Shown piece after piece: positions 8,533 to 34,167 of a stretch of DNA of 44,381 nt. This DNA comes from Chloroflexota bacterium. GTDB lineage: Bacteria; Chloroflexota; Anaerolineae; UBA4142. The stretch is taken from contig VGOB01000008.1 of NCBI GenBank assembly GCA_016865935.1, forward strand, positions 1 through 44,381, given 5' to 3'. Below the pieces are notes generated by a model, which did not search any database, had not been told where the DNA came from, and saw only the letters and a list, made by a program, of their open reading frames with translations. Made by a program: the position numbers and the translations under genes. Position 1 is the first letter of the stretch, and each line of letters starts with the position of its first letter.

Positions 8533-8537
8533 GTGGA

Positions 8538-8678: not shown

Positions 8679-8698
8679 CTGGCGCTGAGGTGATTTGA

Positions 8699-13226: not shown

Positions 13227-13620
13227 CAAAGCCGGGTTAAAGCCATTCAATCGAATACTCGGCGTTATCCCCTGAACACGCGGTTGTGTTGGGGGATGCC
13301 GTTTTTGCGATTTCCAAGTCGGCGGAAATAAAACGATAGTCTTGCAGGAGGGCTACTGGCGATTTCGGATGATTCCTGACGAACGAACACGCCGGATAGG
13401 CGTCTAGCATGCAAGTCGAACGTCGGTGCGCGCTGGGCTGGGGTGTTGTCGCGCCACAGCTCGGGGTAAGGCGCCGCGAGGATGGAGAGACGCTGCCGGA
13501 GAAGGAGGCAATGCGACAGAAAACAAAGACGTTGTTTGATCGTGCTTTGCCCAATGCCCTATCACTCTTCTCGACGGGGCAAATTTATCAAACATGATTG
13601 ATGTTCGTAGGAGGCAACAA
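13227..13620 (+). ncRNA. Long structured 5' leader of the exporter gene
   Basis: About 390 bases separate the promoter from the exporter ATG and hold no convincing gene. The segment begins with a terminator-like hairpin (13,260-13,306) and continues with GC-rich dyads. At 13,408-13,422 it contains 'catgcaagtcgaacg', identical to a hallmark near the 5' end of bacterial 16S rRNA, but the flanks do not continue as a recognisable 16S gene. I recognise no known riboswitch class. It may be an attenuated leader or an unrecognised regulatory RNA. Confidence 0.4.
13260..13306 (+). terminator. Terminator-like hairpin inside the exporter leader
   Basis: The stem pairs 'cggc..atcccc' with 'ggggatgccg', with an inner 'aacac'/'gtgtt' pair and a short loop, followed at once by five T residues (13,302-13,306). 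It lies 30-80 bases after the candidate transcription start. It is either an attenuator for the exporter gene or an end for transcripts from upstream. Confidence 0.6.
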
Positions 13621-18617: not shown

Positions 18618-19370
18618 ATGACTGACGCCGCGATGATTTGGAATCTGCTTGCCGCGCTCATCATCGGCTTGGGGTATCTTGCCGCGTTCGTTTTCGTCGG
18701 CGGATTGTTGCTGCGGATCGCGCTGTACATCAAAACGCCCGTGCCGCTGAAAATCGTCCAGACGCCGGGACCCAAAAGCGCGCCAGGCGTCCTCGCGCGC
18801 ATCGCAGGCGATGTGCTGATTTTCCCGAATCTCTTCCAAGCCGACAAATTGCTGTGGCTCGGCGCGTGGATTTTTCACGCGTGCCTCTTTTTGATTCTCG
18901 TGCGGCACACGCGCTATTTTCTCTACCCCGTGCCGGAACTCGTGATTGATTGGCAAACGATCAGCGTCTACGCCGGCTTCTTCTTCCCGATTCCCGCGCT
19001 CTATCTTTTCTGGCGACGGCTCGCGTCGTCGCGCGTGCTGTACATTTCGGGCTTGCCCGATTACATCACGCTCATTCTGCTCACCGCGATCGCATCAACC
19101 GGAATGTTGGTGCATTATTTCGCGCGCGTCTATCTCGTTGACGTGAAAGCGTTCACGCTCGGACTCGTCACGTTCGCGCCCGTGCCGCCGCCGCAGCATC
19201 CGATTTTCATCGCGCATTTTCTTTTGGTCTGCGCGCTCTTGATTTGGTTCCCGTTCAGCAAATTGATGCACGCGGGTGGCATCTTCTTCTCGCCGACGCG
19301 CAACCAAATTGATAACGTGCTGTACCCGCGCTATGTGAACAAATGGAACGAGGAGGTTCGCGTTGACTGA
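18618..19370 (+). CDS. dsrM: DsrM-like membrane cytochrome b subunit
   Basis: This 250-residue integral membrane protein has about five hydrophobic segments and resembles NarI/DsrM/HmeC. Candidate heme-b histidines lie in helices (WIFHACLFLILVRHTRYF, LVHYFARVYL, FIAHFLLV). The C-terminal motif 'WFPFSKLMHAGGIFFSPTRN' is typical of DsrM-type subunits. DsrM takes electrons from menaquinol and passes them to DsrK. It is shorter than the longest DsrM proteins (over 300 residues) but similar to Chloroflexota and Gram-positive forms. ATG 18,618 has 'gggag' upstream. It pairs with the dsrK gene 116 bases downstream. Confidence 0.85.
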   Translation: MTDAAMIWNLLAALIIGLGYLAAFVFVGGLLLRIALYIKTPVPLKIVQTPGPKSAPGVLARIAGDVLIFPNLFQADKLLWLGAWIFHACLFLILVRHTRYFLYPVPELVIDWQTISVYAGFFFPIPALYLFWRRLASSRVLYISGLPDYITLILLTAIASTGMLVHYFARVYLVDVKAFTLGLVTFAPVPPPQHPIFIAHFLLVCALLIWFPFSKLMHAGGIFFSPTRNQIDNVLYPRYVNKWNEEVRVD

Positions 19371-19486: not shown

Positions 19487-20938
19487 GTGCCTGAAAAATT
19501 CGCCGACTTTCCCGCGACCGCGCTCGCGTGGCGCAAAACGAACGGCGGCATCGCGATTCCCGTTCCCGAAATGGACGAAGGCATCGCCGCGGCGATGGTG
19601 TGTCATCCATCGAAAGCGAAAGATATGAAGCCGATCGCGCTGCCGACCGAACGCGTACCGCAGTGGCAAGCGCGCGCCGTCGAAAAATTGCGCGAGTTGC
19701 TGACTAAGTATCGCGGCTTGTCAGTCTACCTCGATATTTGCGCGCAGTGCGGCGCGTGCAGCGACAAATGCCAGTTCTATCTCGGCACTGGCGACCCGAA
19801 CAATATGCCCGTCGCGCGCGCGAACCTGCTCCGCAAAGTGTATCGCTATTATTTCAAGCGCGCGGAAAGATTCCTCGGCGGTGATGCCGAACCGTTCAAC
19901 GAGCAAGTTTTGAAAGAATGGTACACGTACTTTTATCAATGCTCCGAGTGTCGCCGCTGTTCCGTCTTTTGTCCGTACGGCATTGATACCGCGGAAATCA
20001 CGATGGCGGCGCGCGAAATTATGGCAGCCATCGGCGTCGCGACCAAGTACGTCACCGAAGTCGTCGCCAAGGTGTACGAGCGCGGCAACAACCTGGGTAT
20101 CCCCGCGCCCGCGTGGATTGACAACTGCCAGTTTCTCGAAGAGGAATTGAAAACCGAAACGGGCAAAGACATTCGAATGCCGGTGGACGAAGTGGGCGCG
20201 GACGTTTTGCTCGTGATGCCTTCTGCCGATAACTTTGCGAACACCGACACGATGATGGCGTACGGCAAACTCTTTTACGCGCTCGGCATGTCTTGGACGA
20301 CGAGCACCTACTGCAACGAGGGCGGCAACTTTGGCTTGTTCCTGAATTATCAGAACATGAAAAAAGTGAACAAGCGCATCCTCGACGCGGCGCGCGATCT
20401 CAAAGTCAAGCGCGTCATCTGGGGCGAGTGCGGTCACGCGTGGCGCGCCGCGATTTATACGAACACGCTCAACGGTCCGATGGATTTTCTCGATCCGCCG
20501 CATCCCGTTCACATCTGCCAATTCACCGCCGATTTGATCAAGCGCGGCGCGTTCAAGATTGACAAATCGGCAAACGACGATTTGCTGATCACGTACCACG
20601 ATCCGTGCAACGCGGCGCGCGCGGGCTCGCTCCTCGAAGAGCCGCGCGCGATGATTCGCGCGACCTGTAACAAGTTCGTCGAAATGCCGCGCAACACGAT
20701 TCGCGAAAAGACGTTTTGCTGCGGCGCGGGCGGCGGCTTGCTCACCGACGAGATTATGCCGATTCGGATGGCGGGCGGCAAACCGCGCGCGGAAGCGTGC
20801 CGCTCGACTGGCGCGAACTATCTCGCGGTCCCCTGCGCGATCTGCAAGGCGCAACTGCCCGAATTGATGAAGCATTGGAAAGTGGACGTCAAAGTCGGCG
20901 GCGTGCATGATTTGTTGTCGCGCGCGATGATTCTGTAG
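19487..20938 (+). CDS. dsrK: DsrK, iron-sulfur heterodisulfide-reductase-like subunit
   Basis: This 483-residue protein of the HdrD/DsrK family reduces the DsrC trisulfide or disulfide on the cytoplasmic side of the membrane. Two ferredoxin-type cluster motifs are seen: Cys85/88/91/95 (ICAQCGACSDKC) and Cys152/155/158/162 (CSECRRCSVFC). They are followed by the DsrK signature 'YLGTGDPNNMPVARANLLRK' and CCG-domain cysteines for the catalytic cluster (HDPCN, TFCCGAGGGLLTDE, VPCAICKAQLPE). The match to desulfovibrio-type DsrK is close, so this is the canonical copy; a second, more divergent one lies at 34,168. The start is a GTG at 19,487 with 'agaggag' upstream. Confidence 0.94.
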   Translation: MPEKFADFPATALAWRKTNGGIAIPVPEMDEGIAAAMVCHPSKAKDMKPIALPTERVPQWQARAVEKLRELLTKYRGLSVYLDICAQCGACSDKCQFYLGTGDPNNMPVARANLLRKVYRYYFKRAERFLGGDAEPFNEQVLKEWYTYFYQCSECRRCSVFCPYGIDTAEITMAAREIMAAIGVATKYVTEVVAKVYERGNNLGIPAPAWIDNCQFLEEELKTETGKDIRMPVDEVGADVLLVMPSADNFANTDTMMAYGKLFYALGMSWTTSTYCNEGGNFGLFLNYQNMKKVNKRILDAARDLKVKRVIWGECGHAWRAAIYTNTLNGPMDFLDPPHPVHICQFTADLIKRGAFKIDKSANDDLLITYHDPCNAARAGSLLEEPRAMIRATCNKFVEMPRNTIREKTFCCGAGGGLLTDEIMPIRMAGGKPRAEACRSTGANYLAVPCAICKAQLPELMKHWKVDVKVGGVHDLLSRAMIL

Positions 20939-21002: not shown

Positions 21003-21014
21003 TGGATGACGACG

Positions 21015-21302
21015 ATGAACAAATTTCTCTTACTGATGCTTTTACTCGCGCTCGCCGCGCTCACAATCGCGTGCGTTCCCGAAAAACCCGTGAAGGACGG
21101 ACACGGTGAACTTGCCGTCGTGATTGATCGCGAGTTCACGTCGCCTGTCACGCACAGCCCGCTCGATTGGTGGCAGACGCGCCATTTCCAAGCCGTCAAC
21201 AACGGCGACATCAAAGAAAAAGATTGCCTCTACTGCCACAAGGTCGAACGCTCGTGCAATAATTGTCACGGGTATGTTGGAGTTCGGAAAATCGTCCCGT
21301 AG
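21015..21302 (+). CDS. Diheme lipoprotein cytochrome c (DsrJ-like position)
   Basis: This is a 95-residue exported protein. A lipoprotein signal ends at Cys20 (ALTIAC). There are two c-type heme motifs: Cys71-x2-Cys74-His75 (CLYCHK) and Cys81-x2-Cys84-His85 (CNNCHG). His46 and His57 (THSPLDWWQTRH) are possible distal ligands. It sits where dsrJ would be expected, but DsrJ proteins are triheme and this one shows only two motifs, so I do not name it. A membrane-anchored periplasmic electron carrier for the neighbouring Rieske/MopB/NrfD proteins or for DsrMK is the likely role. An alternative ATG at 21,006 adds three residues. Confidence 0.8.
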   Translation: MNKFLLLMLLLALAALTIACVPEKPVKDGHGELAVVIDREFTSPVTHSPLDWWQTRHFQAVNNGDIKEKDCLYCHKVERSCNNCHGYVGVRKIVP

Positions 21303-21388
21303 TTGGTTAGTTGGATAGTTTGTTAGTTTGATGGTTCGTAGAATGTGTCGCAAACATTCAACTACCCAACTATCAAACTATCAAACTT
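21300..21388. repeat. Dispersed repeat, agttggatagtttg family
   Basis: 'agttggttagttggatagtt' faces 'ctacccaactatcaaac'. It is a hairpin-capable element overlapping the stop codon of the diheme lipoprotein gene. Confidence 0.7.
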
Positions 21389-21400
21389 GGAATTTGAAAT

Positions 21401-21838
21401 ATGACACAAACCGCAACTGAATTCCCCTCCAAGTTACAAACGCGCCGCGCGTTCATTCAAACGATGCTGGGTCTTGTCGCGGCGGGCTGGGCGGGCTGGG
21501 CTACCCAAGGCGTTTTGTTCCCCGCGCCGCGCGCGCAAACGGGACAGGTGAAATTCGCGCTGGCGGAATTGCCTATCGGCGCGGTCAAAGCGATCACGTA
21601 CGAAGGCAAGCCCGCGCTCGTACTGCGCGACAAAGAAGGCGTCGTTGCCTTCTCGCTCGTTTGCACGCACCAAGGTTGCATCGTGCAGTGGCGCGAAGGT
21701 AAGCAAGAATTTTATTGCCCCTGCCACGACGGCTATTTCGATCGAAATGGGGATGTGGTCGCGGGTCCGCCGCCAATGCCGCTGGAACAAATCCAGGCGA
21801 AGATTATTGGCGATGAAATTGTAATTGGAGAAGCGTGA
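21401..21838 (+). CDS. Rieske [2Fe-2S] protein with Tat-type signal
   Basis: This 145-residue protein begins with a twin-arginine-like leader (TRRAFIQTM, then a hydrophobic stretch) that may remain as a membrane anchor. The Rieske domain ligands are Cys and His in CTHQGC and CPCHDG, the standard C-x-H-x2-C ... C-x2-H spacing. The C-terminal 'VVAGPPPMPLEQ' is the usual proline loop. Such proteins transfer electrons from quinol on the outer face of the membrane. A Rieske protein beside DsrMK, cytochromes and a MopB/NrfD set is unusual and suggests a bc1- or ACIII-like quinol oxidation step. No cytochrome b gene of the bc1 type is in the window. Confidence 0.93.
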   Translation: MTQTATEFPSKLQTRRAFIQTMLGLVAAGWAGWATQGVLFPAPRAQTGQVKFALAELPIGAVKAITYEGKPALVLRDKEGVVAFSLVCTHQGCIVQWREGKQEFYCPCHDGYFDRNGDVVAGPPPMPLEQIQAKIIGDEIVIGEA

Positions 21839-21882
21839 ACAGTCGACAGAAAATCTAGCGACTGGCGACTGAGGACTTGACA

Positions 21883-22263
21883 ATGAAAAAATTTTTCGCG
21901 ATAACGATTCTTCTCACCATCATCGTTCCATTCCTTCCCGCGACACCGACGGTCGCGCTACCCGAATATTCGACGCGCGTTGGCGAGCCGTGCGGCTCGT
22001 GCCACACGAGCGCGGCAGGCGGTGGTCTGCGTAGCCCGCGCGGTCAAGCGTGGGTCGCGCAAGGCAAACTGAACACCGTGCCGACGATGGACGAATCGCT
22101 GAAAATTCTCGGCGTGAAAGTGACGACCGACCCCGCCGATTACATCGCGCCGACCCCTTCGACTACCGCTCAGGGTGCGCCCGCGCCCGCCGCGCCGCTC
22201 GCCACGCGCTACGAACGCAAGATGATGTTGTTGATGCGGTTGTTGGAGTATGGTGGAAATTAG
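21883..22263 (+). CDS. Small exported monoheme cytochrome c
   Basis: This 126-residue protein has a signal peptide (residues 1-25, MKKFFAITILLTIIVPFLPA) and one c-heme motif, Cys37-x2-Cys40-His41 in EPCGSCHTS. A low-complexity Pro/Ala stretch follows and partly coincides with a repeat core at 22,154-22,173 ('cccttcgactaccgctcagg' type). The C-terminal helix 'YERKMMLLMRLLEYGGN' is conserved-looking and could carry the distal Met ligand. ATG 21,883 is used rather than the TTG at 21,877. Lying between the Rieske and MopB genes, it is probably a subunit or soluble partner of the same complex. Confidence 0.8.
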   Translation: MKKFFAITILLTIIVPFLPATPTVALPEYSTRVGEPCGSCHTSAAGGGLRSPRGQAWVAQGKLNTVPTMDESLKILGVKVTTDPADYIAPTPSTTAQGAPAPAAPLATRYERKMMLLMRLLEYGGN

Positions 22264-22341
22264 TCGCGTAGTCGTGTGGTCGAATAGTCAAACACGAGGC
22301 GACGCACTGACTACAAGACTATTGGACTACCCGACTATCTG
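22262..22341. repeat. Dispersed repeat, agtcg/gtagtc family
   Basis: 'tcgcgtagtcgtgtggtcga' faces 'actacccgactatctgac'. It lies between the monoheme cytochrome and MopB genes. Confidence 0.6.
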
Positions 22342-22355
22342 ACAAGGTTTTGCCA

Positions 22356-24737
22356 ATGAAACTTTCTCGTCGCGAATTTCTCAAAATCAGCGCAGGCGTT
22401 GCCGCCACGAGCGCGGCGCTGCCGCTCATTCAAACCGTCCAAAACGTCGCCGCGAGTGATGCGGCGCCGCGCGCGCCAGACCCTTCGACTCCGCTCAGGG
22501 CGCCCGCGCGCGCGACGTACGACGAAAAATATTTGCATACCGTCTGCTCGCTCTGTCCATCGGGCTGCGGGTTGGAAGTGCGCGTCGTAGATGGGCGCGC
22601 GGTCAAAGTCGAAGGCAATCCGCTACATCCGCTCAATCAGGGTGTCTGCTGTCCCAAAGGTCAAGCGTCGCTCGAAGTGTTGTACTCGCCCGAACGATTG
22701 CCCGCGCCATTACGCCGCAAAGTCGCGAAAGATGTCGCGGCGAACGATATCGCGCAGTGGGAAAAAATTTCGTGGGACGACGCGCAAAAAATCGTCGCCG
22801 ATAAATTGCGCGCGCTGCGCGAGCAAGGTCAAGCGCACACCGTCGCGCTGCTGCACGGCAACTTGCGCGGACAACTGCGCCCGCTGCTGCAGCGCTTCCT
22901 CAACGCGTACGGCTCGCCCAATTTGATTTCGATGGAAAACGACCTGGCGCGCCTCGCGCTGTTTCTGACGCAGGGTGTCAACGGCTATCCGATTTACGAT
23001 ATTGACAATGCGCGCTATGTGATGTGTTTCGGCGGCAGCATCCTGGAATCGTCCCAGCATCTGCAAAAATATTTGTCGGGCTATGGCTTTATGCATCGCG
23101 GACAATCGAACCGCGCGAAACTCGTCGTCGTGGATAGTCGTTTGAATGTGACCGCCGCGAAATGCGACGAGTGGGTGCCGATTCGACCTGGGACGCTCGG
23201 CGCGCTCGCGCTCGGAATGGCGCACGTGCTCATCAAGAGCGGCGCGGTCAACGAATCGTTCGTCAAAAATTGGACGTTCGGCTACGACGATTTCAAAGAC
23301 GACCAGGGCAAGACGCATCTCGGTTTCAAACGATTGGTGCTGGAGCAGTACACGCTCGAACGCGCGCAAGACATCACGGGTATTCCTGGCAGCACGATTG
23401 CGAAACTCGCGGGTGAATTCGGTTCCAACAAACCCGCGCTCGCGATTCTGCCGACGGGTCGCGGTGATTTGTTGAGCGGCAACGGCTTGTCCACCGCGCT
23501 GGCGATTTCTGCCCTCAACGCGCTCGTCGGTTCGATTGAAGTGCCTGGGGGCGTGCAGGTGCAACACTATGCCGATTACGCACCTTGGTCGGCATTGCCT
23601 AGCGATGCGGGCGCGGAGAAAGCGCGCGCGATGCCGCGACTCGATGGCGCGGGCGCGGATTATCCCGTCGCGTTGTCGTCGTATCAAACGCTCGCGGAAA
23701 ATTTGGCGAAGGCGAAACCGTACGCAGTCAACGCGCTCTTCTTGCTGAACACGAATCCCATTCTCGACGCGCCACAAGGTCAACGATTCGTTGACGCGCT
23801 GAAAAAGTCATTCGTCGTCAGTTTCAACCCGACGCTCGACGAAAGCGCGGCGTACGCGGATTTGATTTTGCCGTCGCTCACATTTTTCGAAATGTGGCAG
23901 GACGATGTCATCGAAGGGACGGGGTTCGCGGGTGTCGCGCTGCGTCAGCCCGTCGTCGCGCCCGTGCGCGATGGGCGCAATCCAGGCGACGTGATTTTGC
24001 ACATCGCGAAACAAATCGGCGGCGCGGTCGGTCAAGCGCTGCCGTGGCGCGATTTTCTCGAGGTCGTCAAGTTCCGCATCGGCGCGCTGGGAATTTCGTG
24101 GGATGATTTGGTCAAAAATGGCGCGTGGTCTGCGCTCGTCTACAATTTCGCGCAGCCAGGGAGCAAGGCGTGGAGCAAAGTCGTCGGACGCGATCGCGTC
24201 AACGCGCCGAAAGATGGTCGCTATGATTTCTTCTCGCGCGAATTGTTCGCCGCGCTTAACCCATCGGACGATGTTGCGTGCTTGCCGCATTTCGAATTGC
24301 CCGCCGAACCCGCGAACGCGGCGTATCCGTTCCTGTTGACGTGCCAGGAGACGATGACGCAGCCGCGCAGTTGCGTTGGCGTTGTGCCGTCGCTGCAAGA
24401 AATTTACGGACTGCAAGTCGGGTCGCGCTGGGACTCCTGGGTCGAGATTCATCCGAAAGCCGCGCGCGCGCTCGGCATCAAGAAAGACGATTTGGTGTGG
24501 GTTGAATCGGCGGCGGGAAAAATTCGCGCGCGCGCCAAACTCGTCGAAGGCATTTGGCAGAACGCGGTGAACATTCCGTACGGGCAGGGACAGTACACAG
24601 CGGCGCAATGGGGGCGCGAACCGAGTACTGCAAAACGCGTCGTCGGCGTGAATCCGCTGCAACTCGTTTCGACCAGCGCGGAAAAAATTTCTGGCTTGGC
24701 GATGATGTTGCCGACGAGAGTGAAGATTTACAAATAG
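22356..24737 (+). CDS. Tat-exported molybdopterin-oxidoreductase (CISM) catalytic-type subunit
   Basis: This 793-residue protein has a canonical twin-arginine signal (SRREFLKIS) and belongs to the complex iron-sulfur molybdoenzyme family (PsrA/PhsA/QrcB/ActB relatives). The N-terminal [4Fe-4S] motif is intact: Cys64-x2-Cys67-x3-Cys71-x27-Cys99. A C-terminal molybdopterin dinucleotide-binding domain is seen ('LLTCQETMTQPRSCVG', 'VWVESAAGKIRARAKLVEG'). At the usual Mo-ligand position, shortly after 'AYGSPNL' (about 174-180), the sequence runs ISMENDLARLAL with no Cys, Ser or SeCys. The metal may therefore be absent or bound differently, as in QrcB and ActB. It is followed by a ferredoxin subunit and an NrfD anchor. 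A role as a structural or electron-transfer subunit fits best. Confidence 0.85.
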   Translation: MKLSRREFLKISAGVAATSAALPLIQTVQNVAASDAAPRAPDPSTPLRAPARATYDEKYLHTVCSLCPSGCGLEVRVVDGRAVKVEGNPLHPLNQGVCCPKGQASLEVLYSPERLPAPLRRKVAKDVAANDIAQWEKISWDDAQKIVADKLRALREQGQAHTVALLHGNLRGQLRPLLQRFLNAYGSPNLISMENDLARLALFLTQGVNGYPIYDIDNARYVMCFGGSILESSQHLQKYLSGYGFMHRGQSNRAKLVVVDSRLNVTAAKCDEWVPIRPGTLGALALGMAHVLIKSGAVNESFVKNWTFGYDDFKDDQGKTHLGFKRLVLEQYTLERAQDITGIPGSTIAKLAGEFGSNKPALAILPTGRGDLLSGNGLSTALAISALNALVGSIEVPGGVQVQHYADYAPWSALPSDAGAEKARAMPRLDGAGADYPVALSSYQTLAENLAKAKPYAVNALFLLNTNPILDAPQGQRFVDALKKSFVVSFNPTLDESAAYADLILPSLTFFEMWQDDVIEGTGFAGVALRQPVVAPVRDGRNPGDVILHIAKQIGGAVGQALPWRDFLEVVKFRIGALGISWDDLVKNGAWSALVYNFAQPGSKAWSKVVGRDRVNAPKDGRYDFFSRELFAALNPSDDVACLPHFELPAEPANAAYPFLLTCQETMTQPRSCVGVVPSLQEIYGLQVGSRWDSWVEIHPKAARALGIKKDDLVWVESAAGKIRARAKLVEGIWQNAVNIPYGQGQYTAAQWGREPSTAKRVVGVNPLQLVSTSAEKISGLAMMLPTRVKIYK
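22481..22500. repeat. Short repeat core (cccttcgactccgctcaggg) in the MopB gene
   Basis: This 20-base unit is coded in frame as PSTPLRA just after the Tat signal. A near copy is at 22,154-22,173 in the cytochrome gene. The unit fits the 'gagcggagtcgaagg' core found inside larger repeats at 32,030 and 34,055 on the other strand. Confidence 0.55.
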
Positions 24738-24861
24738 TTTTGTTAGCTGGATAGTTTGCTGGTTTGGCAGTTTGATAGTTGCGTTGTCCGCCACAAAACA
24801 TCTTCAACTACTGAACCACTGAACTACCCAACTATCCAACCATCCAACTATCAAACTATTG
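24737..24861. repeat. Dispersed repeat, agtttgatagttg family
   Basis: 'agctggatagtttgctgg' and related units face 'caactatccaaccatccaac'. It fills the whole space between the MopB and ferredoxin-subunit genes. Confidence 0.75.
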
Positions 24862-24870
24862 AGGAAAAAT

Positions 24871-25551
24871 ATGGCGCGATGGACAATGGCAATTGATTTA
24901 GATAAATGTCTCGGCTGTCAGGCGTGCACGGTGGCGTGCCGCATGGAAAATAATACGCCGATTGCAGGACCCGAGCAGGCGGAAAAAGGGCGCGCGATTT
25001 TGTGGAACGAAGTGATTCCGTTCGTCGAAGGCGAGTACCCGAACGTCACCGCGCGCTACATTCCGCGTCCGTGTATGCACTGCGACGACCCGCTGTGCGT
25101 GAAAGTGTGTCCTGTCAAAGCGACTTACAAAAACGAGGAAGGCACGGTGCTTGTGGATTACGAGCGCTGCATCGGCTGTCGCTTTTGCACCGTCGCGTGC
25201 CCGTACACCGTGCGCTATTTCAACTGGCACGAGCCGTACTATCCCGAATCGCTCAAAGCGCACCTGAATCCCGACGTGCCGATTCGTCCGAAAGGTGTCG
25301 TCGAAAAATGTACGTTCTGCGTGCAGCGTTTGCAGCGCGCGCGCGCGAAAGCGGAAGCCGAGGGGCGCGTCTTTCTCGCGAGCGATTACGTTCCCGCGTG
25401 CGTGCAGACCTGCACGGGACGCGCGCGCTACTTTGGCGACCTTGACGACCCGACGAGTCTCGTCTCGCAACTGCTCAAAAGCCCGCGCGCGTTTCGTTTG
25501 CTGGAAGAGTTGGGCACGAAACCGAAGGTGTTTTATTTGCGCGAAGGATGA
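24871..25551 (+). CDS. Four-cluster ferredoxin subunit (PsrB/QrcC/DsrO type)
   Basis: This 226-residue electron-transfer subunit belongs to the CISM family. The cysteine motifs for four [4Fe-4S] clusters are present: CLGCQACTVAC, CMHCDDPLCVKVC, CIGCRFCTVAC and the later CTFC...CVQTC set. No Tat signal is seen, so it would be co-exported with the Tat-bearing MopB subunit, as is usual for PsrAB pairs. ATG 24,871 has 'gagg' upstream. It would wire the MopB subunit to the NrfD membrane subunit encoded at 26,879. The gene for a MOT1-type transporter now stands between these two partners. Confidence 0.92.
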   Translation: MARWTMAIDLDKCLGCQACTVACRMENNTPIAGPEQAEKGRAILWNEVIPFVEGEYPNVTARYIPRPCMHCDDPLCVKVCPVKATYKNEEGTVLVDYERCIGCRFCTVACPYTVRYFNWHEPYYPESLKAHLNPDVPIRPKGVVEKCTFCVQRLQRARAKAEAEGRVFLASDYVPACVQTCTGRARYFGDLDDPTSLVSQLLKSPRAFRLLEELGTKPKVFYLREG

Positions 25552-25633
25552 CGGAATTTCGATTGTTCGCCACGATGGTTTCCTAGTCCAAGCGTAGTCG
25601 CAAATCCGCAATCGTTTAGCTGGATAATGTGCT

Positions 25634-26779
25634 ATGAAGTTCAAGTCTTTTGAGTTTAATCTAAGGGAGCTTGCTGGGTCTATGGGCGACTTTGGCACGC
25701 TCTTTCCATTAGCCATTGGCTATATTGTTGTCAATGGTCTCAATCCTGCGGGGTTTCTGGTGATGATGGGACTGGCAAACATTATCACTGGCATAGTGTA
25801 CCGACTTCCTATGCCTATCGAACCGATGAAGGTACTTGCTGTGATGGCAATTGCCCAACATTGGTCACCCTCAATGGTCTATGCCTCTGGATTCGCAATG
25901 GGTGTCATTTGGTTAGTCTTTGCCGCCACAAACCTCATCGGTTGGATTGCAAAGATTACGCCCAAGTCCGTTATCTGGGGTATCCAAGTCACACTAGGTT
26001 TACTCCTCGCTATTGAAGCAATCAAAATGCTTTCGACTTGGTGGGCGCTGGGTGTTGTCTCCATTCTGCTGGTGCTGGCACTTCGGCAGAATCGCTATGC
26101 ACCTGCTGCAATCGTGCTAATGGTTCTTGGTATAGCAATTTGCCTTGTCAATGGAAACTTCCAGCAGGTTAGCCCTCTTGCTCTCAATTTGCCACCACTC
26201 ACAGGTTTTCGTCTTGAGGAAGTCTGGCAGACGTTGTTACTCGCAGGTTTCGCACAAATTCCGTTGACAGTTACCAATGCAACCATTGCCACTGCTGCCC
26301 TAATCAAGAAATATTGGCCCGACAAGCCTGTGAGCGAGAGACAACTTTCTCTAAATCAAGGCATCATGAACTTGGTTTTACCTTTCTTCGGCGGTATGCC
26401 AATGTGTCACGGTGCTGGCGGCTTGGCGGGACAATACTACTTTGGCGCGCGCACGGGTGGGACAAACATCATTGAGGGGTTAATCGAAGTTTCATTGGGG
26501 TTGTTCTTCGCCTCGTCGGTTGCTGGCTTGTTCGCCGTCTTTCCATCAGCCATCATCGGGGCAATGATGTTTCTCGTTGGGATAGAACTCACCAAGTTTG
26601 CAAGGAATATTCGCCCAAACAAAGATTTAGTGCCGATGGGCGCGACGATTATCGTCTCCCTGTTCAGCAATATGGCTTTGGGTTTTGCTGTTGGACTTGG
26701 AGTCTATCACTTGACCAGATTCATTGTCAGGCAGACAGGTCATTGCGCGTGCCATCAGCCAGTGAGGAACTACACCTAA
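25634..26779 (+). CDS. MOT1-type molybdate/sulfate transporter, atypical composition
   Basis: This 381-residue membrane protein has ten or more hydrophobic segments. The family signatures 'GSMGDFGTLFPLAIGY' near the N-terminus and 'YRLPMPIEPMKVLAVMAIAQ' match the MOT1 group of molybdate/sulfate transporters related to SulP. The codon use differs plainly from its neighbours: many A/T third positions (gct, ttt, att) against GC-rich codons elsewhere. No clear ribosome site precedes the ATG. Together these suggest recent transfer. It splits the ferredoxin subunit from its NrfD partner. Molybdate uptake would fit a molybdopterin subunit next door and sulfate uptake would fit dsr; the sequence does not decide. 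Confidence 0.85.
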   Translation: MKFKSFEFNLRELAGSMGDFGTLFPLAIGYIVVNGLNPAGFLVMMGLANIITGIVYRLPMPIEPMKVLAVMAIAQHWSPSMVYASGFAMGVIWLVFAATNLIGWIAKITPKSVIWGIQVTLGLLLAIEAIKMLSTWWALGVVSILLVLALRQNRYAPAAIVLMVLGIAICLVNGNFQQVSPLALNLPPLTGFRLEEVWQTLLLAGFAQIPLTVTNATIATAALIKKYWPDKPVSERQLSLNQGIMNLVLPFFGGMPMCHGAGGLAGQYYFGARTGGTNIIEGLIEVSLGLFFASSVAGLFAVFPSAIIGAMMFLVGIELTKFARNIRPNKDLVPMGATIIVSLFSNMALGFAVGLGVYHLTRFIVRQTGHCACHQPVRNYT

Positions 26780-26821
26780 AGTGGCGAACACGCAAAAGCG
26801 ATTAACCTACCTGTTGAGAAT

Positions 26822-26862
26822 TGCAGAGTCGCAAATCATAAATCGAAAATCATAAATCGCAC
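26822..26862. repeat. Short tandem aaatcataaatcg repeat
   Basis: Units 'aaatcataaatcgaaaatc' occur ahead of the NrfD-type gene. This is another small repeat family that occupies an intergenic joint. Confidence 0.5.
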
Positions 26863-26878
26863 CCGAGGTTGAACCATA

Positions 26879-28213
26879 ATGTCCCATCTGGAATCCACCG
26901 TCTTCGCAACCCTCCGCAAAACAGGCATCCGTTTCTACATCCTGTTCGGCGTGCTTGCCGCGCTCGTCGTGTGGGGCGTGTTCGCGTACATCTATCAATT
27001 GATTGAGGGCTTGGGCGTCACGGGTTTGAGCCGCCCCGTCTACTGGGGAATCTATCTCACCAACTTTGTCTTCTTCATCGGCATCAGTCACGCGGGCACG
27101 CTCATCTCCGCGATTCTGCGCGTCACGCAAGCGAACTGGCGCCGCTCGATTACGCGCATCGCCGAGGCGGTCACCGTGTTCGCGCTCTGCGTCGGCGGTT
27201 TGCAAATCCTGATTGATATGGGACGTCCCGACCGCATCCTCAACATGATTTTCTATGGACGATATCAAAGCGTGTTCCTGTGGGACTTGACCTGCATCGG
27301 CATTTATTTTATGAGTAGCATCACGTACCTCTACCTGCCGATGATTCCCGATTTTGCGCGGATGCGCGACAAACTCACCGACATCGCGCGCTGGCGCAAG
27401 TGGCTCTACACTCTCGCCGCGCTCGGTTGGAAAGGGAACCACGAACAACATCGCCGTTTGGAAATCGCGATCGCGATTATGGCGATTGCGATTATCCCGA
27501 TTGCCGTCTCAGTGCATACCGTCGTCTCGTGGATTTTTGGAATGACCGTGCAACCGATGTGGCACAGCACGATTTTCGGACCGTACTTTGTCGTCGGCGC
27601 GATCTTCAGCGGCATCGCGACCTTGTTTATCGCGATGGCGATTATGCGCAAGGTTTTGCGTTTGGAAGCTTGGTTGACCGACAAACAGTTCGACTATCTC
27701 GGCTTGCTGCTGCTGGTGATGAGCGCGTTCTGGTGCTACTTTACCTTCGCCGAATACCTCACGACGGTTTACAGCGCGCTCACGCACGAAATGCACGTCG
27801 CCGATGCGAAACTGTACGGCGAATACGCCTGGGCGTTCTGGCTGATGGTCTTCTGCAACGCCGTCGTGCCATTCGCGATTCTCACGCGCCGCGCCGGACG
27901 GACGGTGATGGGCACCGTCATCGCATCGGTTTTCATCAATATTGGAATGTGGCTGGAACGCTTTACGATTGTCGCGCCCACGCTCACGCGTCCCAGCTTG
28001 GCGTTCGAACACGCGATTTATCAACCCTCCTGGGTCGAAATATCCATCACCGTTGGATCGCTCGCGCTCTTCGCGCTCCTCTTCGTCATCTTCTTCAAAC
28101 TCTTCCCCAGTCTCGCGATTTGGGAAGTGGAAGAAGGCATCGAAATCGAAGAACGCAACCGCATCAACAAGCAACTGTCGCTGGAAGATTTGCGAGCGAT
28201 GGAAAAGGCATAA
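26879..28213 (+). CDS. NrfD/PsrC-family quinone-interacting membrane subunit
   Basis: This 444-residue integral membrane protein has about ten helices, long for a PsrC-type protein and closer in size to the ActC/QrcD/DsrP forms. Family features include 'YWGIYLTNFVFFIGISHAGT' and 'LSRPVYWG' near the first helices, 'WLERFTIVAPTLTRPSL' near the end, and a charged cytoplasmic tail rich in Glu and Arg. It should bind menaquinol near the outer face and exchange electrons with the ferredoxin subunit at 24,871. The ATG at 26,879 follows 'gaggtt'. Function as the membrane anchor of the MopB complex is strongly suggested by context. Confidence 0.92.
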   Translation: MSHLESTVFATLRKTGIRFYILFGVLAALVVWGVFAYIYQLIEGLGVTGLSRPVYWGIYLTNFVFFIGISHAGTLISAILRVTQANWRRSITRIAEAVTVFALCVGGLQILIDMGRPDRILNMIFYGRYQSVFLWDLTCIGIYFMSSITYLYLPMIPDFARMRDKLTDIARWRKWLYTLAALGWKGNHEQHRRLEIAIAIMAIAIIPIAVSVHTVVSWIFGMTVQPMWHSTIFGPYFVVGAIFSGIATLFIAMAIMRKVLRLEAWLTDKQFDYLGLLLLVMSAFWCYFTFAEYLTTVYSALTHEMHVADAKLYGEYAWAFWLMVFCNAVVPFAILTRRAGRTVMGTVIASVFINIGMWLERFTIVAPTLTRPSLAFEHAIYQPSWVEISITVGSLALFALLFVIFFKLFPSLAIWEVEEGIEIEERNRINKQLSLEDLRAMEKA

Positions 28214-28290
28214 TGCGTTTCAGGTTTCAGGTTACAAGTTTAACGTTGAACCTCGAACCTGAAACCTGAAACTTGAAACCTGGAACTTGA
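28209..28290. repeat. Dispersed repeat, gtttcaggttaca family
   Basis: 'gcgtttcaggtttcaggtta' faces 'cctgaaacctgaaacttg'. It overlaps the stop region of the NrfD gene and ends directly before the small membrane peptide gene. Confidence 0.7.
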
Positions 28291-28291
28291 T

Positions 28292-28438
28292 ATGGAAACA
28301 CTCTACTGGCTCATCAACACCCAAACCCTCGGCGGACTCGTCGTGGTGATAGTTTTCGGCGTCGTCGTCACGCTGTACTTTTTTATGCTGCGCTGGATTG
28401 TCGCGGGCGCGAATGTTGCAGACGATGGTGATACGTAG
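28292..28438 (+). CDS. 48-residue single-pass membrane peptide
   Basis: This is a small reading frame (METLYWLINTQ... to ...ADDGDT) with one strong hydrophobic helix at about residues 13-38 (LGGLVVVIVFGVVVTLYFFM) flanked by polar ends. It begins two bases after a repeat and ends inside the next one: its TAG stop belongs to 'gtaggggc'. Third-position base use is GC-rich, as in true genes nearby. Position right after the NrfD gene suggests a small accessory subunit of that complex, as known for several respiratory complexes. No family is recognised, so the call rests on composition, topology and context. Confidence 0.55.
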   Translation: METLYWLINTQTLGGLVVVIVFGVVVTLYFFMLRWIVAGANVADDGDT

Positions 28439-28541
28439 GGGCGAGGCATTTGCAGATTGTCATTCTGAGCGGAGCGAAGAATCTCTCAAGCAACTTGCGA
28501 GACGCTTCGCTACGCTCAGCGTGACAAATTGCCCCTACCGC
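28435..28541. repeat. Compound palindrome with gtaggggc outer arms
   Basis: The outer arms 'gtaggggcga' and 'ttgcccctac' enclose 'gtcattctgagcggagcgaa' and 'cgctacgctcagcgtgac' arms. The structure is a nested pair of palindromes between the small peptide gene and the solenoid protein gene. Confidence 0.75.
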
Positions 28542-28570
28542 GCATTGCAATTATTGGAGATTCCCGAAAG

Positions 28571-30922
28571 ATGAAAAATAGATTCCTGCCCCTCGTCGTA
28601 ATTCTCGGCGGCGCGCTGATGGTCGCGTTTGCCTTTGCCGCGTCAACGCCCGCCGCGCCATCCGCAATTCATAATTCGCAATCTGCAATTCCTAATTCGC
28701 AATTCGCAATTGGCAATTATTGCCTTGAATGCCACACCGCCGTCCCCGCGCAATCACTCGACGCGCTCCGCCCCGTCGAATGGGCGCGCGATATTCCGTG
28801 CGCGACGCTCCGTAAAGCGTACGAAGGCGTCTGGCAAACCGACACGCTCGTCGCCGCGTTCCAAAACGCGCAGAACGATGTGAGCGCGGTTGGCGTTGAC
28901 ACGCGCGCGCAAGCCAAGCGCATCAACGCGCAACGCGTCATCGCGGAACGATTCACGCGCGAGAATGACATTTCGCTTGCCGCGATGACGAATCGGTACC
29001 AGACCGCGCGCTTTCAAATGAACAAAGCGTACGCGGCGATGAACGACGCGCGCGCGGAACGCGACCGCGCGTTCATCTTGATTGCGGTTTCGCTCGCGAC
29101 GATTTTCGTCGTCAGCGGAATTTTCCTGGGTTGGCGCAACACGTTCAAGGGCAAACGCGTAGGGGCGATTGAAAAATCGCCCATTGAAAAATCGCCCATT
29201 GAAAAATCGCCCATTGAAAAATCGCCCATTGAAAAATCGCCCATTGAAAAATCGCCCATTGAAAAATCGCCCGTTGAAAAATCGCCCGTTGAAAAATCGC
29301 CCACCTCGCGCGCGGCATTCGCGCTCGCGGCAGTCGGAATGATTGTCGTCTTCGTTCTGTTTGCGAATCCGCTGTTCGCGTTCGCGCCGCCGTTGCCCAC
29401 GCCGACCGAAGAAGAGACCGAACGCCAGACCGCCGTTGACCAGGCGACGCGCGTGAGCGATGCCGTCGCGCGTTTTTCCGCGCAATCCTGGGTGCTGGGA
29501 CGCATCGGCGCGCAGTGGAACGCGACGGACAAGACGCAGGCGAACGCCGCGTACGCCGACGCGCTCACTGCCGCGCGCGACAAGAATGCGAACCTCGCCG
29601 CATACTGGGGACAACTCCAAGCCGTGCGCGAGAGCGCGGTGACGTGGAACGAAGCGACGCAAGACCTTGCCGCGTTCCGCGCCGACAAAATCGAAACTGC
29701 CGCGCAGCAATCCTGGCAATACCGCGCCATTGCGAACGAGTGGCTCGCGGTTGACAAAGCCAAAGCCGCCGACGCGCTCAACCTTGCACTCAATTCCAAT
29801 CTCCAATCTCCAGTCTCCAATCTCCGCGATTTTGAGTTGCGCGCCATCGCCGTCACCTACGCCAAACTCGACGCCGCCAAAGCGAACGAACTCGTCGCGC
29901 AAGTGCAAGACCCGTTCCTGCGCGCGTGGGGCTGGCGCGAGATGGGACAATTCGACAAAGCCACGCAAACCGCGCGCGAAGTGAAATCGCCGTACGACCG
30001 CGCGTGGGCATTGCGCGAAATCGCGCGCGCATCGGGCAACACCGCGCTGCTGAACGACGCACTCGACGCGGCGACGAAAATCGAGAACGCGGAATCGCGC
30101 GCGTACGCGCTCGCCGATATTGCGATTGTTTGGGCGGCGAAAGATAGCGCGAAAGCAAACGAGGTCATCGAAAAGATTCCCGTCGCGTATCCCGACGCGC
30201 GCGTGATGGCGCTGCGCGGCGCGGGCAAGGCGACGATCGACGCGAATCGCGCGAAAGAATTTTTCGCGCGCGCGCTGACCGACGCGAAAAAGGTGGACAG
30301 CGCGTACGCGATGGAAAAATATACCGCCGCGCTTGCCGCCGACCTTGCGCGCGTGGACGCGGCAAGCGCGCTCGATGTCGCGTCAAAATTGACGGACGCA
30401 GTTTTGCGCGACCAGGCGTACCGTGACATTGCTATCGCCGCGAACGCGAACGACGTTGCCGCGAAAATCGCGACGCCGACTTTCCGCGCGCAAGCGTTGA
30501 CCGCGCTCGGCGCGAAAGCAAACGACAAGACGCAAGCCGCGAAATATTTCCAGGACGCGTTCGCGCTCGCGGACAAGATGGAAGACCTGGCGGCGTTGCG
30601 CGATTTAGCAATCGCGTGGGCGGCGCTTGATCCCAAAGCCGCGCTCGCCGTCGTAGACAAGCTTGAAGATGCGGCGGACAAGGTTGCCGCGCTCCAAGCC
30701 ATCGCGCTCGAACTTGCCAAGGCGGACAAGCGACAATCGGCGGAAGTGTTCGACCGCGCGGTGAATCTCGCGAAATCGGTGCGCGTGCGCGGCGAAGCGT
30801 TTGCGTCGGCGCGCGCGCTTGCCGCGCTTGCATCATCGTACGCGGCGATTGACGCGGCACGCGCGAACCAAGCATTTGCCGCCGCGCTCGAATCGGCAAA
30901 GCGCGTCAATGTGAAATATTAA
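28571..30922 (+). CDS. Membrane-anchored monoheme protein with (I/V)EKSP array and alpha-solenoid domain
   Basis: This 783-residue protein belongs to no family I recognise. A signal anchor spans residues 1-24, followed by a repeat-encoded stretch (IHNSQSAIPNSQFAIGN) and one c-heme motif, Cys51-x2-Cys54-His55 (YCLECHTAVP). A helical region and a transmembrane helix (about 163-184) precede nine tandem five-residue units (I/V)EKSP at about 200-244. A further hydrophobic helix (about 248-270) is followed by about 500 residues of helical repeats rich in Ala ('AYALADIAIVWAAKDSAKAN', 'ALRDLAIAWAALDPKAA') that look like a TPR/alpha-solenoid scaffold. ATG 28,571 has 'ggag' upstream. It closes the MopB/NrfD gene group and may be an assembly or docking subunit with an electron-transfer heme. 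Function unknown. Confidence 0.75.
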   Translation: MKNRFLPLVVILGGALMVAFAFAASTPAAPSAIHNSQSAIPNSQFAIGNYCLECHTAVPAQSLDALRPVEWARDIPCATLRKAYEGVWQTDTLVAAFQNAQNDVSAVGVDTRAQAKRINAQRVIAERFTRENDISLAAMTNRYQTARFQMNKAYAAMNDARAERDRAFILIAVSLATIFVVSGIFLGWRNTFKGKRVGAIEKSPIEKSPIEKSPIEKSPIEKSPIEKSPIEKSPVEKSPVEKSPTSRAAFALAAVGMIVVFVLFANPLFAFAPPLPTPTEEETERQTAVDQATRVSDAVARFSAQSWVLGRIGAQWNATDKTQANAAYADALTAARDKNANLAAYWGQLQAVRESAVTWNEATQDLAAFRADKIETAAQQSWQYRAIANEWLAVDKAKAADALNLALNSNLQSPVSNLRDFELRAIAVTYAKLDAAKANELVAQVQDPFLRAWGWREMGQFDKATQTAREVKSPYDRAWALREIARASGNTALLNDALDAATKIENAESRAYALADIAIVWAAKDSAKANEVIEKIPVAYPDARVMALRGAGKATIDANRAKEFFARALTDAKKVDSAYAMEKYTAALAADLARVDAASALDVASKLTDAVLRDQAYRDIAIAANANDVAAKIATPTFRAQALTALGAKANDKTQAAKYFQDAFALADKMEDLAALRDLAIAWAALDPKAALAVVDKLEDAADKVAALQAIALELAKADKRQSAEVFDRAVNLAKSVRVRGEAFASARALAALASSYAAIDAARANQAFAAALESAKRVNVKY
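28664..28719. repeat. In-frame dispersed repeat in the solenoid gene
   Basis: Units 'caattcataattcgcaatc' and 'cctaattcgcaattcgcaat' are translated as IHNSQSAIPNSQFAIGN between the signal anchor and the heme motif. Confidence 0.75.
29168..29302. repeat. Nine-copy 15-base tandem repeat (coding, xEKSP)
   Basis: Nine units of the type 'attgaaaaatcgccc' (the last two start with g) are in frame as seven IEKSP and two VEKSP. With the preceding 'gggcgatt' the unit forms 'gggcgattgaaaaatcgccc', itself a palindrome, so the array looks like an expanded arm of a dispersed hairpin repeat. Copy number changes would never shift the frame. Confidence 0.95.
29791..29823. repeat. In-frame short repeat (ccaatctccaatctcc)
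   Basis: Tandem 'caatctccaatctccagtc' inside the solenoid gene is translated as SNLQSPVSNL, between two helical repeats. Confidence 0.6.
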
Positions 30923-32732: not shown

Positions 32733-33065
32733 ATGTCTCCACGTTCGATTTTCGATATGCAAGCCGAGTTGTGCAAAACGATGGGCAACGCCGCGCGCTT
32801 GCAGATCGTTCACACCTTGCGCGGAGGTCCGCATCGCGTTAGCGATATTGTTGAGGTGACTGGTCTCGCGCAAGCCAAAGTGTCGCAGCATCTCGGCGTC
32901 TTGCGCGCGTACGGCATCGTCGCGACCAAGCGGGAAGGCAAGGATGTGATCTACCGCATCGCAAATTCCAAACTGACGCGCGTCTGCGACTTGATGCGCG
33001 AGGTGCTGGCGGAACAAGCAAGCGAACGTTCGGAAGTATTTGAAGCGTTACAAAGAAAAGGATGA
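32733..33065 (+). CDS. ArsR-family transcriptional regulator
   Basis: This is a 110-residue winged-helix repressor (ELCKTMGNAARLQIVHTLRG, then 'AKVSQHLGVLRAYGIVATKR', 'GKDVIYRIAN'). The classical metal motif ELCVCDL is absent. Two cysteines are present, Cys14 near the N-terminus and Cys85 in the last helix (LTRVCDLMRE). Sulfide/persulfide sensors of this family (SqrR/BigR) also use two cysteines, but at other positions, so a thiol-switch role is only a possibility. It lies 16 bases after the radical SAM gene and ahead of the second DsrMK pair, which it may control. The ATG at 32,733 has 'cgagg' upstream. Confidence 0.88.
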   Translation: MSPRSIFDMQAELCKTMGNAARLQIVHTLRGGPHRVSDIVEVTGLAQAKVSQHLGVLRAYGIVATKREGKDVIYRIANSKLTRVCDLMREVLAEQASERSEVFEALQRKG

Positions 33066-33122
33066 AGGCGGAAGGATGAAGGATGAAAACCACGCGTTCT
33101 TTCATCCTTCATCTCTCATCCT
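33060..33122. repeat. Dispersed palindrome, ggatgaagg family
   Basis: 'aaggatgaaggcggaaggat' faces 'ctttcatccttcatctctcatcc', starting within the last codons of the ArsR gene. Confidence 0.75.
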
Positions 33123-33144
33123 TCTGCCTTTGAGGGAAGGCACA

Positions 33145-34023
33145 ATGGAATGGTTTCTGATTTTGTTCGGCTGGATTTCCGCCGCGCTGTTTGTGATCGT
33201 CTCGGCGTATAAGATTTATCGCGTCGCAACCGCGCCGCTCAATGTGCGTTGGGAAGTGTATCCCGTGCCGCACGAAGAAGGCGAACGGCGACATTACGGC
33301 GGCTCGTATATGGAAGAGGTGGACTGGGCGAAAAAGTCGCGCGCGGGTTCGCTCGTCGCCGAGTTCGTCGAGATGGGGCAAGAGATTTTCTTGTTGCAAC
33401 GCGTGCGCAAGTACAACGTTTACGGTATTTGGCTACTTTCGCTGGCGATGCACTGGGGGTTGTATCTCGGCGCGGGGTTGCTGGGTCTGCTGGTGATCGA
33501 AAACGCGTTGCCCGCGCTCGCGCCGTTGACGAACGTCGTCGGCGTCGTCGCGTTCGCGCTGGGCACGCTGGGCGCGTTCGGGTTGATCGCCAAGCGCGCG
33601 ACGGATCGCAATCTAAATCTCTACACCGCGCCGATTGACTATTTCAATCTGCTGTGGCTCGCCGCGATTTTCGTTTTGGGACTAGCGTCCTTCGCGACCG
33701 CAGGATCGTTTGCGGCGCATCGCGCGTACATCGGCAGCGTGTTGACGTTCCAGCCCGCGCCGATTGCGCCGCTCGTCGCGCTGACGTTCTTCGCATTCGA
33801 GTTGTTCGTCGTGTATATGCCATTCTCGAAACTGATTCACTACTTTGCGAAATATTTTACGTACCATAGTCAGTTGTGGGACGATGCGTTCAAGGTGAAA
33901 GGATCGCCGACGGACAAAAAAGTGGCGGAGCAGTTGGCATATACCGCCGCGTGGTCTGCGCCGCACATCGTGCCAGGGAAATCGTGGTTGGAGCAAGCGC
34001 AGAACCCGAACGTCGAAAAATAA
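33145..34023 (+). CDS. Second DsrM/HmeC-like membrane subunit
   Basis: This 292-residue membrane protein is a paralogue of the dsrM at 18,618. The first helix (residues 4-24) is followed by an extra cytoplasmic or outer segment of about 65 residues, then five helices with candidate heme histidines (LAMHWGLYLG, AAHRAYIG). It ends with the family motif 'YMPFSKLIHYFAKYFTYHSQ'. It pairs with the iron-sulfur protein gene 144 bases downstream, giving a complete second quinol:thiol-disulfide type module. ATG 33,145 has 'gaggga' upstream. Whether it serves DsrC or another disulfide substrate cannot be told. Confidence 0.85.
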   Translation: MEWFLILFGWISAALFVIVSAYKIYRVATAPLNVRWEVYPVPHEEGERRHYGGSYMEEVDWAKKSRAGSLVAEFVEMGQEIFLLQRVRKYNVYGIWLLSLAMHWGLYLGAGLLGLLVIENALPALAPLTNVVGVVAFALGTLGAFGLIAKRATDRNLNLYTAPIDYFNLLWLAAIFVLGLASFATAGSFAAHRAYIGSVLTFQPAPIAPLVALTFFAFELFVVYMPFSKLIHYFAKYFTYHSQLWDDAFKVKGSPTDKKVAEQLAYTAAWSAPHIVPGKSWLEQAQNPNVEK

Positions 34024-34029
34024 TCCCCG

Positions 34030-34146
34030 CGTGTCATTGCGAGGAGCATCCTGAGCGGAGCGCAGCGAAGTCGAAGGATGCGACGAAGCAATCCCCAACT
34101 TGCGACTTGGAGATTGCTTCGGGCAAAAATCGCCCTCGCAATGACA
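34030..34146. repeat. Dispersed palindrome (gtcattgcgagg family, long form)
   Basis: Left part 'gtgtcattgcgaggagcatc' with a 'cctgagcggagcgcagcgaa' segment, right part 'gccctcgcaatgacac', inner 'gaagcaatcc'/'ggagattgcttc'. It is nearly the same compound element as the one inside the radical SAM gene. Confidence 0.85.
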
Positions 34147-34167
34147 CAGGGTTGAAGGTGACAAGAA

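Follow-up and report, generated by a model that had tools for sequence, protein, structure and literature searches.

A Rieske protein and a MopB-ferredoxin-NrfD set behind dsrMK in Chloroflexota: a candidate quinol module in place of DsrJOP

It has long been asked, for the respiration of sulfite and sulfate, how DsrJOP links DsrMK with the quinone pool and what form of energy conservation this entails. In the DsrMKJOP arrangement, DsrM and DsrK are accompanied behind dsrABDC by a small membrane-attached c-type cytochrome with three hemes (DsrJ), a four-cubane ferredoxin (DsrO) and an NrfD-family subunit (DsrP). Rieske centres, which are part of the bc1/b6f complexes, typically take part in oxidising quinol, with the electrons going to acceptors of high potential. 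Other systems combine a MopB protein with a ferredoxin and an NrfD subunit, such as alternative complex III (ACIII, ActABCDEF) and QrcABCD, in which QrcB carries no cofactor (PMC13059093). A published dsr operon of Electryoneota has petBCD (cytochrome b6f) in place of dsrJOP (PMC10439189). The Dsr pathway of Chloroflexota has been read as reductive, without dsrL (PMC10591310).

Here, we analysed a block of genes directly downstream of dsrK in a Chloroflexota genome (G000); the window is the whole 44,381-nucleotide stretch under analysis. The genes dsrABDC, dsrM and dsrK lie upstream. The dsrM gene (18618–19370, + strand; ATG start inferred) encodes a short heme-b membrane subunit, the presumed module partner, which matched PF02665 and scored 170 bits against the NCBIfam DsrM cut-off of 300, while dsrK (19487–20938, +) encodes the cytoplasmic FeS subunit acting on DsrC and scored 520 bits (cut-off 400). 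All eight genes of the original prediction were found on the + strand between positions 21006 and 30922, in the order first described: diheme cytochrome, Rieske protein, monoheme cytochrome, MopB, ferredoxin, NrfD, transmembrane (TM) peptide and solenoid protein. That list was incomplete, however, as it had left out a gene for a 381-residue MOT1-family molybdate/sulfate transporter (25634–26779, +; PF16983, 4e-54) in the gap between the ferredoxin and NrfD genes. In relatives, no MOT1-family gene was present at that place. The transporter was rejected as a member of the complex for this reason, and from the comparison of loci we infer that it is an insertion in G000, outside the conserved block. 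Radical SAM and TerC genes, like MOT1 unrelated in function, also occur in the region, and a DsrE-like gene lies downstream of the block. A terminator scan gave no excess over shuffled sequence, and promoter-like sites showed only a weak excess.

The block adjoins dsrK in about 10 further Chloroflexota genomes from several families, and more copies are truncated. Its place behind dsrK is constant across these families, although the inserted genes vary, and dsrM is conserved upstream of it. The expected conservation of gene order in other dsr-positive Chloroflexota was thus borne out by the loci beside dsrK. Among 396 genomes of the class, the block-type Rieske protein occurred in 13, all of them dsr-linked, and dsrB in 15, with 12 genomes common to both sets (hypergeometric 2e-19, uncorrected for kinship). 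In the thirteenth Rieske genome (G565), dsrK is directly upstream and the contig is cut. The presence of MOT1, radical SAM and TerC genes would fit a separate respiratory cluster that is a chance neighbour downstream of dsrK and has no functional link to DsrMK, but the position is kept across several families despite differing inserts, and the Rieske clade is confined to dsr-linked genomes, making this very improbable. Since many Chloroflexota genomes show the same order next to dsrK, it is not due to chance, and the block quite likely functions with DsrMK.

Compared to DsrMKJOP, the locus likewise has DsrK, a short DsrM-like protein, a small membrane-attached c-type cytochrome, a four-cubane ferredoxin and an NrfD-family subunit behind dsrABDC, but adds the Rieske protein, the monoheme cytochrome, MopB, the TM peptide and the solenoid protein. 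The cytochrome (21006–21302, +) has a lipobox-like TIAC motif and appears to be a shortened, DsrJ-like protein with two hemes (CLYCH and CNNCH) instead of three. It scored below the DsrJ cut-off. Alignment with DsrJ (hhalign) gave a probability of 96.4 and an E-value of 1.3e-9, compared to 27% and 22% for control cytochromes. DsrJ was also the only NCBIfam family matched by all seven diheme relatives, each match being weak, while the window copy alone, as a single sequence, reached an E-value of 0.26. A PDB sequence search with the diheme protein or DsrJ returned no relevant relative, and the predicted fold (pLDDT 59) was of too low confidence for use. A search of 11 dsr-linked genomes found no canonical DsrJ. 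DsrJ above the cut-off occurred in three other genomes (G138, G145 and G222), two of which had full DsrMKJOP loci. Judged from these comparisons, the diheme protein is very probably the DsrJ counterpart.

The Rieske [2Fe-2S] protein (21401–21838, +; PF00355, 9e-14) has an N-terminal RR/TM anchor, and both cluster motifs are conserved in its relatives. It is the component shared with bc1/b6f, which differ from the block in having a cytochrome b; none was found beside the Rieske gene inside the block. G000 encodes another cytochrome b on contig C7, with its own Rieske protein, and it is therefore unlikely that the block Rieske serves that cytochrome. The monoheme cytochrome (21877–22263, +; CGSCH) matched no Pfam or NCBIfam family, and its motif GEPCxSCHxSxxGGGxR was conserved in alignment A4.

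The MopB-like subunit (22350–24737, +; PF00384, 3e-38) has an RRxFLK Tat motif, consistent with export. The residue at the position of the Mo-ligating Cys of ArrA/PsrA was missing or varied in 15 of 15 dsr-linked sequences, whereas the FeS cysteines (CxxCxxxC...C) were kept. A role as a catalytic molybdoenzyme was rejected because the Mo ligand is lost. The protein differs in this respect from the Psr/Phs/Arr molybdoenzymes; the Qrc and ACIII MopB sequences that we compared likewise lack the ligand. In the trees, MopB and NrfD each formed a clade of their own outside the Psr/Arr, Qrc, DsrP and ACIII references, and also outside the Psr/Phs-like clade sampled, where a placement, with the other genes absent, would have spoken against a distinct complex. 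The ferredoxin (24859–25551, +) has four [4Fe-4S] sites, whose 16 cluster cysteines were conserved in 10 dsr-linked relatives, and its best solved match was the C-terminal domain of ActB. The NrfD-family subunit (26879–28213, +; PF03916, 1e-33) falls in the ActC superclade, with ActC as its best solved match (E = 3e-74). It keeps the quinone-site residues Asp113, Ser131 and Asp136, the roles of which are taken from PMC8076601. At the position of ActC His139 the dsr-linked NrfD proteins have Asp, and at that of Asp253 they have Ile, Val or Leu, whereas His139 and Asp253 were present in all ActC sequences used.

As in ACIII, a MopB without Mo ligand is thus combined with a ferredoxin and an ActC-type NrfD, but the block has no ActA pentaheme protein, ActD, ActE or ActF, contains a Rieske protein, and has four cubanes in its ferredoxin, where the examined ACIII sequence has a Cys-to-Thr change. 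The resemblance to QrcABCD (MopB without Mo ligand, four-cubane ferredoxin, NrfD and a c-type cytochrome) raises the alternative of a Qrc-like reductase, in which hydrogenase, formate dehydrogenase or extracellular donors would pass electrons via cytochromes to the quinone pool and on to DsrMK. QrcB and QrcC were the best equivalog models for MopB (306 bits, cut-off 440) and the ferredoxin (269 bits, cut-off 400), and the quinone-site Asp is as in QrcD. However, these scores are below the cut-offs, MopB is outside the Qrc clade, and NrfD is far from QrcD (49 bits, cut-off 570). Furthermore, the block has only di- and monoheme proteins in place of the multiheme QrcA, is linked to DsrMK, and includes a Rieske centre, which is thermodynamically unsuited to low-potential quinone reduction. 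We consider the Qrc-like alternative improbable. The Dsr models fared similarly, with the ferredoxin just under the DsrO cut-off (192 bits, cut-off 200) and NrfD outside the DsrP branch (118 bits, cut-off 350). Model scores, trees and gene content agree with the view put forward originally that parts of several known systems are combined here; they are of Qrc, ACIII, bc and Dsr type, and the set is identical to none of these systems.

The single-TM peptide of 48 residues (28292–28438, +) is at the same place in seven relatives. The last gene (28529–30922, +; likely ATG at 28568) encodes a predicted periplasmic protein with a heme site, a TM helix and a TPR-like α-solenoid (model pLDDT 78). One CxxCH was present in every relative whose N-terminus is included, and in one genome (G077) the heme and solenoid parts are two separate genes. 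A fold search with the solenoid returned only generic helical-repeat proteins and no functional clue. A second group of loci in Anaerolineae (group B: tetraheme, diheme, MopB, ferredoxin, NrfD, TorD-like protein and TM peptide) has a sister MopB clade and shares the TM peptide and the g3 cytochrome domain with the block, but lacks dsr genes and a Rieske protein, has a TorD-like chaperone, and has Asn at the Mo-ligand position.

G077, which belongs to another class, has cytochrome b6 and subunit IV exactly at the position of MopB, ferredoxin and NrfD. Its dsr-linked Rieske protein and the block Rieske formed one clade (97/91), and the diheme and solenoid proteins are also common to both. Two other genomes (G626 and G542) have DsrMK and the diheme protein alone. 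The loci behind dsrMK form a modular series: the diheme protein; the diheme protein with Rieske, cytochrome b6 and subunit IV; and the diheme protein with Rieske and MopB-ferredoxin-NrfD. The cytochrome b6 version occurs in one genome of our data set, with no further case among 29 genomes of G077's class. Its precedent is the petBCD operon of Electryoneota (PMC10439189), which likewise combines DsrMK and a Rieske protein with a quinol-reactive membrane subunit replacing dsrJOP; no published precedent was found for the MopB-ferredoxin-NrfD version. Given the swap in G077 and the diheme-only loci, the block is most likely a quinol module that can be exchanged for others on DsrMK and that takes over from DsrJOP.

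That the genes encode such a membrane module working with DsrMK is, on the whole, the favoured reading. NrfD would oxidise quinol on the periplasmic side, and electrons would pass through the ferredoxin cubanes and the FeS site retained by the non-catalytic MopB, reach the Rieske centre and the monoheme cytochrome, and go on via the diheme protein to the b hemes of DsrM and to DsrK, which would reduce the DsrC trisulfide produced by DsrAB. Release of the quinol protons on the outer side, together with proton consumption on the inner side, would make this a redox loop. The solenoid protein may be a scaffold in the periplasm that carries a single heme. In G077, cytochrome b6 and subunit IV would take the quinol step and feed the same Rieske and diheme proteins. 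That the Rieske protein relays electrons from the quinol module to the diheme protein is tentative, with the odds falling slightly against it. The combination of Rieske and ACIII-like parts without the usual cytochrome b probably represents a new wiring of the quinone pool to sulfite reduction. More specifically, it is possible, if doubtful, that an ActC-type NrfD stands in for cytochrome b beside the Rieske protein, in a new quinol-oxidising assembly that arose when the cytochrome b6/subunit IV of a dsr-linked Rieske complex was exchanged for MopB-ferredoxin-NrfD, or the other way round, and that wires quinol to DsrMK via the DsrJ-like cytochrome.

The net direction is somewhat more probably from quinol to DsrC. 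DsrD is present in G000 and aprA was not found there, in better agreement with the reduction of sulfite than of sulfate. The opposite, oxidative direction would make the block a quinol:cytochrome c oxidoreductase substituting for complex III, with sulfur or sulfide electrons passing from DsrMK to quinone, NrfD/Rieske, cytochrome c and finally a terminal oxidase or another acceptor of high potential. It would agree with the usual role of Rieske centres, with ActC as the nearest solved NrfD and with the DsrE-like gene after the block, and COX1, found in nine of the 11 dsr-linked genomes searched, makes an oxidative chain possible. However, COX1 was not found in G000 or G001, DsrD is present, and the Dsr of the phylum is held to be reductive and lacks dsrL (PMC10591310). 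G000 and others have a separate cytochrome b with Rieske, G086 has a separate ACIII-type locus, and the block-type Rieske occurs only in dsr-linked genomes. We regard the oxidative function as unlikely.

Several observations weigh against the proposed quinol module feeding DsrMK. Sulfite reduction runs at low potential, for which a Rieske centre of high potential would be an unusual relay; the cytochrome b6 version occurs in only that one genome of the data set; the single-sequence similarity to DsrJ is weak; and G000 has the other cytochrome b with its own Rieske. In addition, a search for menD did not find it in G000 or in most dsr-linked genomes, so that menaquinol, the quinone originally proposed, is unproven. 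In the comparative series, one DsrMK is joined by the diheme protein alone, by a cytochrome b6-type module or by a MopB-ferredoxin-NrfD module, so that each part's role becomes open to testing. The series also suggests that modules of the cytochrome b and NrfD kinds are interchangeable as partners of one Rieske protein. Further downstream, the window contains a second dsrM-like/dsrK-like pair (33040–35787, +; PF02665 for the dsrM-like gene), for which HMM matches were found at the equivalent relative place in relatives.

The window is contig C8 in its entirety (44,381 bases, from G000, a 4.8-Mb genome with a completeness of 94%). Its + strand carries a series that starts with dsrA, dsrB, dsrD, dsrC, dsrM and dsrK. 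Downstream (3') of dsrK, on the same strand, are genes for a diheme c-type protein, a Rieske protein, a monoheme c-type protein, MopB with a Tat motif and a ferredoxin, followed by a MOT1-type transporter, NrfD, a 48-residue membrane peptide and a heme-bearing solenoid protein. Beyond the solenoid gene lie DsrE-like and radical-SAM genes, a second dsrM/dsrK-like pair, TerC and a cbiA/dsrN-like gene. All genes named in the original prediction were correct, but it had overlooked the MOT1-type molybdate/sulfate transporter within the block (25634-26779, + strand). A protein with an N-terminus very like that of this transporter is encoded 3' of the diheme gene in another genome, G542 (L247:4322-5449), and the transporter may be a recurrent dsr neighbor.

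The block combination is real and conserved. The whole gene order from dsrK to the solenoid gene is kept in other dsr-positive Chloroflexota: among 60 relatives examined, it was found again in G001, G004, G008 and G050, while G007 has the same order spanning a contig break, and G002 and G013 retain part of it at contig ends. The MOT1-type transporter was absent from its window position in these seven relatives. Additional copies were read directly in G086, G578 and G684, and a search across 84,980 species-level genomes yielded further copies in Chloroflexota (e.g., L048, L049 and L050; contigs L044, L045, L050 and L052 are identical to members already found and were counted once). Of 396 genomes drawn from the class, 13 carry the block-type Rieske, 15 carry dsrB and 12 carry both (hypergeometric 2e-19, uncorrected for kinship); in the thirteenth Rieske-bearing genome, dsrK lies immediately upstream, on a cut contig. 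In G002 (L027:3404-8235), an insert of ≈3 kb with PIN-like and other genes separates the ferredoxin from NrfD, an interval that is a tolerated insertion site.

Single diheme sequences matched the DsrJ model weakly (best E 0.0034; window copy 0.26), DsrJ being the only family matched by the diheme proteins of all seven relatives. Comparison of the diheme and DsrJ profiles, both shallow, gave a probability of 96.4% (E 1.3e-9), with the W..HM stretch aligned as well as the two heme sites (CxxCH...CxxCHxYxGV), compared to 27% for a pentaheme and 22% for the monoheme family as controls. Canonical DsrJ was above cut-off in G138, G145 and G222, but no dsr-linked genome tested gave such a match. G077 belongs to a different class within the phylum. 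Its dsrABDCMK is followed by genes for the same diheme protein and a Rieske protein, for cytochrome b6 (220 residues) and for subunit IV (137 residues), then by heme/TM and solenoid proteins as two separate genes and by dsrM/K-like genes. The G077 and block Rieske proteins form one clade (97/91), adjoining cytochrome b-linked Rieske proteins. In G626 (a single contig) and G542, the diheme gene comes after dsrK, and neither a Rieske gene nor a quinol module lies downstream of it. Together with the block, these arrangements point to the diheme protein as the partner that DsrMK always keeps and to an exchangeable quinol module.

The closest solved relative of NrfD is ActC of alternative complex III (ACIII; E 3e-74), and PsrC was not matched in the search of solved structures. 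A 90-sequence tree unites most dsr-linked NrfD proteins in a single clade (100/99), which lies inside a wide ActC-containing superclade yet outside the ACIII ActC clade, and is distant from DsrP, QrcD and Psr-like sequences, although QrcD and one Psr-like sequence sit on long branches. ActC residues His139, Ser164, Asp169 and Asp253, with roles taken from PMC8076601, correspond to Asp113, Ser131, Asp136 and Ile219 in the window NrfD. His139 and Asp253 are invariant in all ACIII ActC sequences used, whereas dsr-linked NrfD proteins have Asp and Ile/Val/Leu. In L049 and L051, MopB falls inside the dsr-linked clade while NrfD groups with sequences outside it, which suggests displacement of NrfD within the operon.

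MopB retains its FeS cysteines, but the Mo-ligating Cys of ArrA/PsrA is missing in 15/15 dsr-linked sequences, and the Qrc and ACIII sequences compared lack it too; QrcB is described as having no cofactor (PMC13059093). By a quick tree method, dsr-linked MopB forms its own clade, with a non-dsr Anaerolineae group as sister. The ferredoxin keeps 16/16 cluster cysteines, whereas in the one ACIII ferredoxin compared, Thr replaces one of them. Since the Mo ligand is lost while the FeS cysteines are kept, MopB, ferredoxin and NrfD are read as likely electron-transfer parts, not as a catalytic molybdoenzyme.

In the proposed path, NrfD would oxidize quinol near the periplasm, and electrons would pass through the ferredoxin and MopB clusters to the Rieske and monoheme proteins, then via the DsrJ-like protein to DsrM and DsrK, ending in reduction of the DsrC trisulfide. 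The quinone type is putative, with menD above cut-off in G684 alone among the genomes searched. DsrD is present in the window and a search of G000 for aprA gave no match, both of which are consistent with sulfite reduction. An oxidative chain remains a rival because most dsr-linked genomes carry COX1, although none was found in G000 or G001. One study termed the Chloroflexi Dsr system chimeric (PMC10504309).

The Rieske/MopB/NrfD block is not mentioned in the open-licence papers searched on DsrMKJOP evolution or Chloroflexota dsr, and the combination as such has apparently not been filed previously. In Electryoneota dsr operons, petBCD reportedly replaces dsrJOP (PMC10439189). Since all parts have known relatives and this b6-type counterpart is published, the block is a new variant among DsrMK-linked quinol modules, not a new category.

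Related sets occur elsewhere. Loci L054-L075 and relatives, from Anaerolineae, hold a dsr-free set, for which no name was found, of tetraheme, diheme, MopB (Asn at the Mo-ligand site), ferredoxin, NrfD and TorD-like proteins and the same membrane peptide. Loci L085-L115, from Acidobacteriota, Methylomirabilota, Bacteroidota, Nitrospirota and others, combine a pentaheme protein with MopB, ferredoxin and an NrfD of the ActC superclade with an Asp-type quinone site; they represent a predicted ACIII-like minimal complex.

In the window, a 15-bp in-frame repeat, ATTGAAAAATCGCCC (29168-29303; IEKSP in the protein; 98% matching), occurs nine times in the linker that joins the TM helix of the solenoid protein to its solenoid. 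Genes for a sulfonate/nitrate-type ABC transporter lie 5' of the dsr genes, as do siroheme/heme genes and one for a PF03601 (YeiH-like) transporter (2558-8679 and 13594-15150); the position of the PF03601 gene upstream of dsrA is conserved in relatives.
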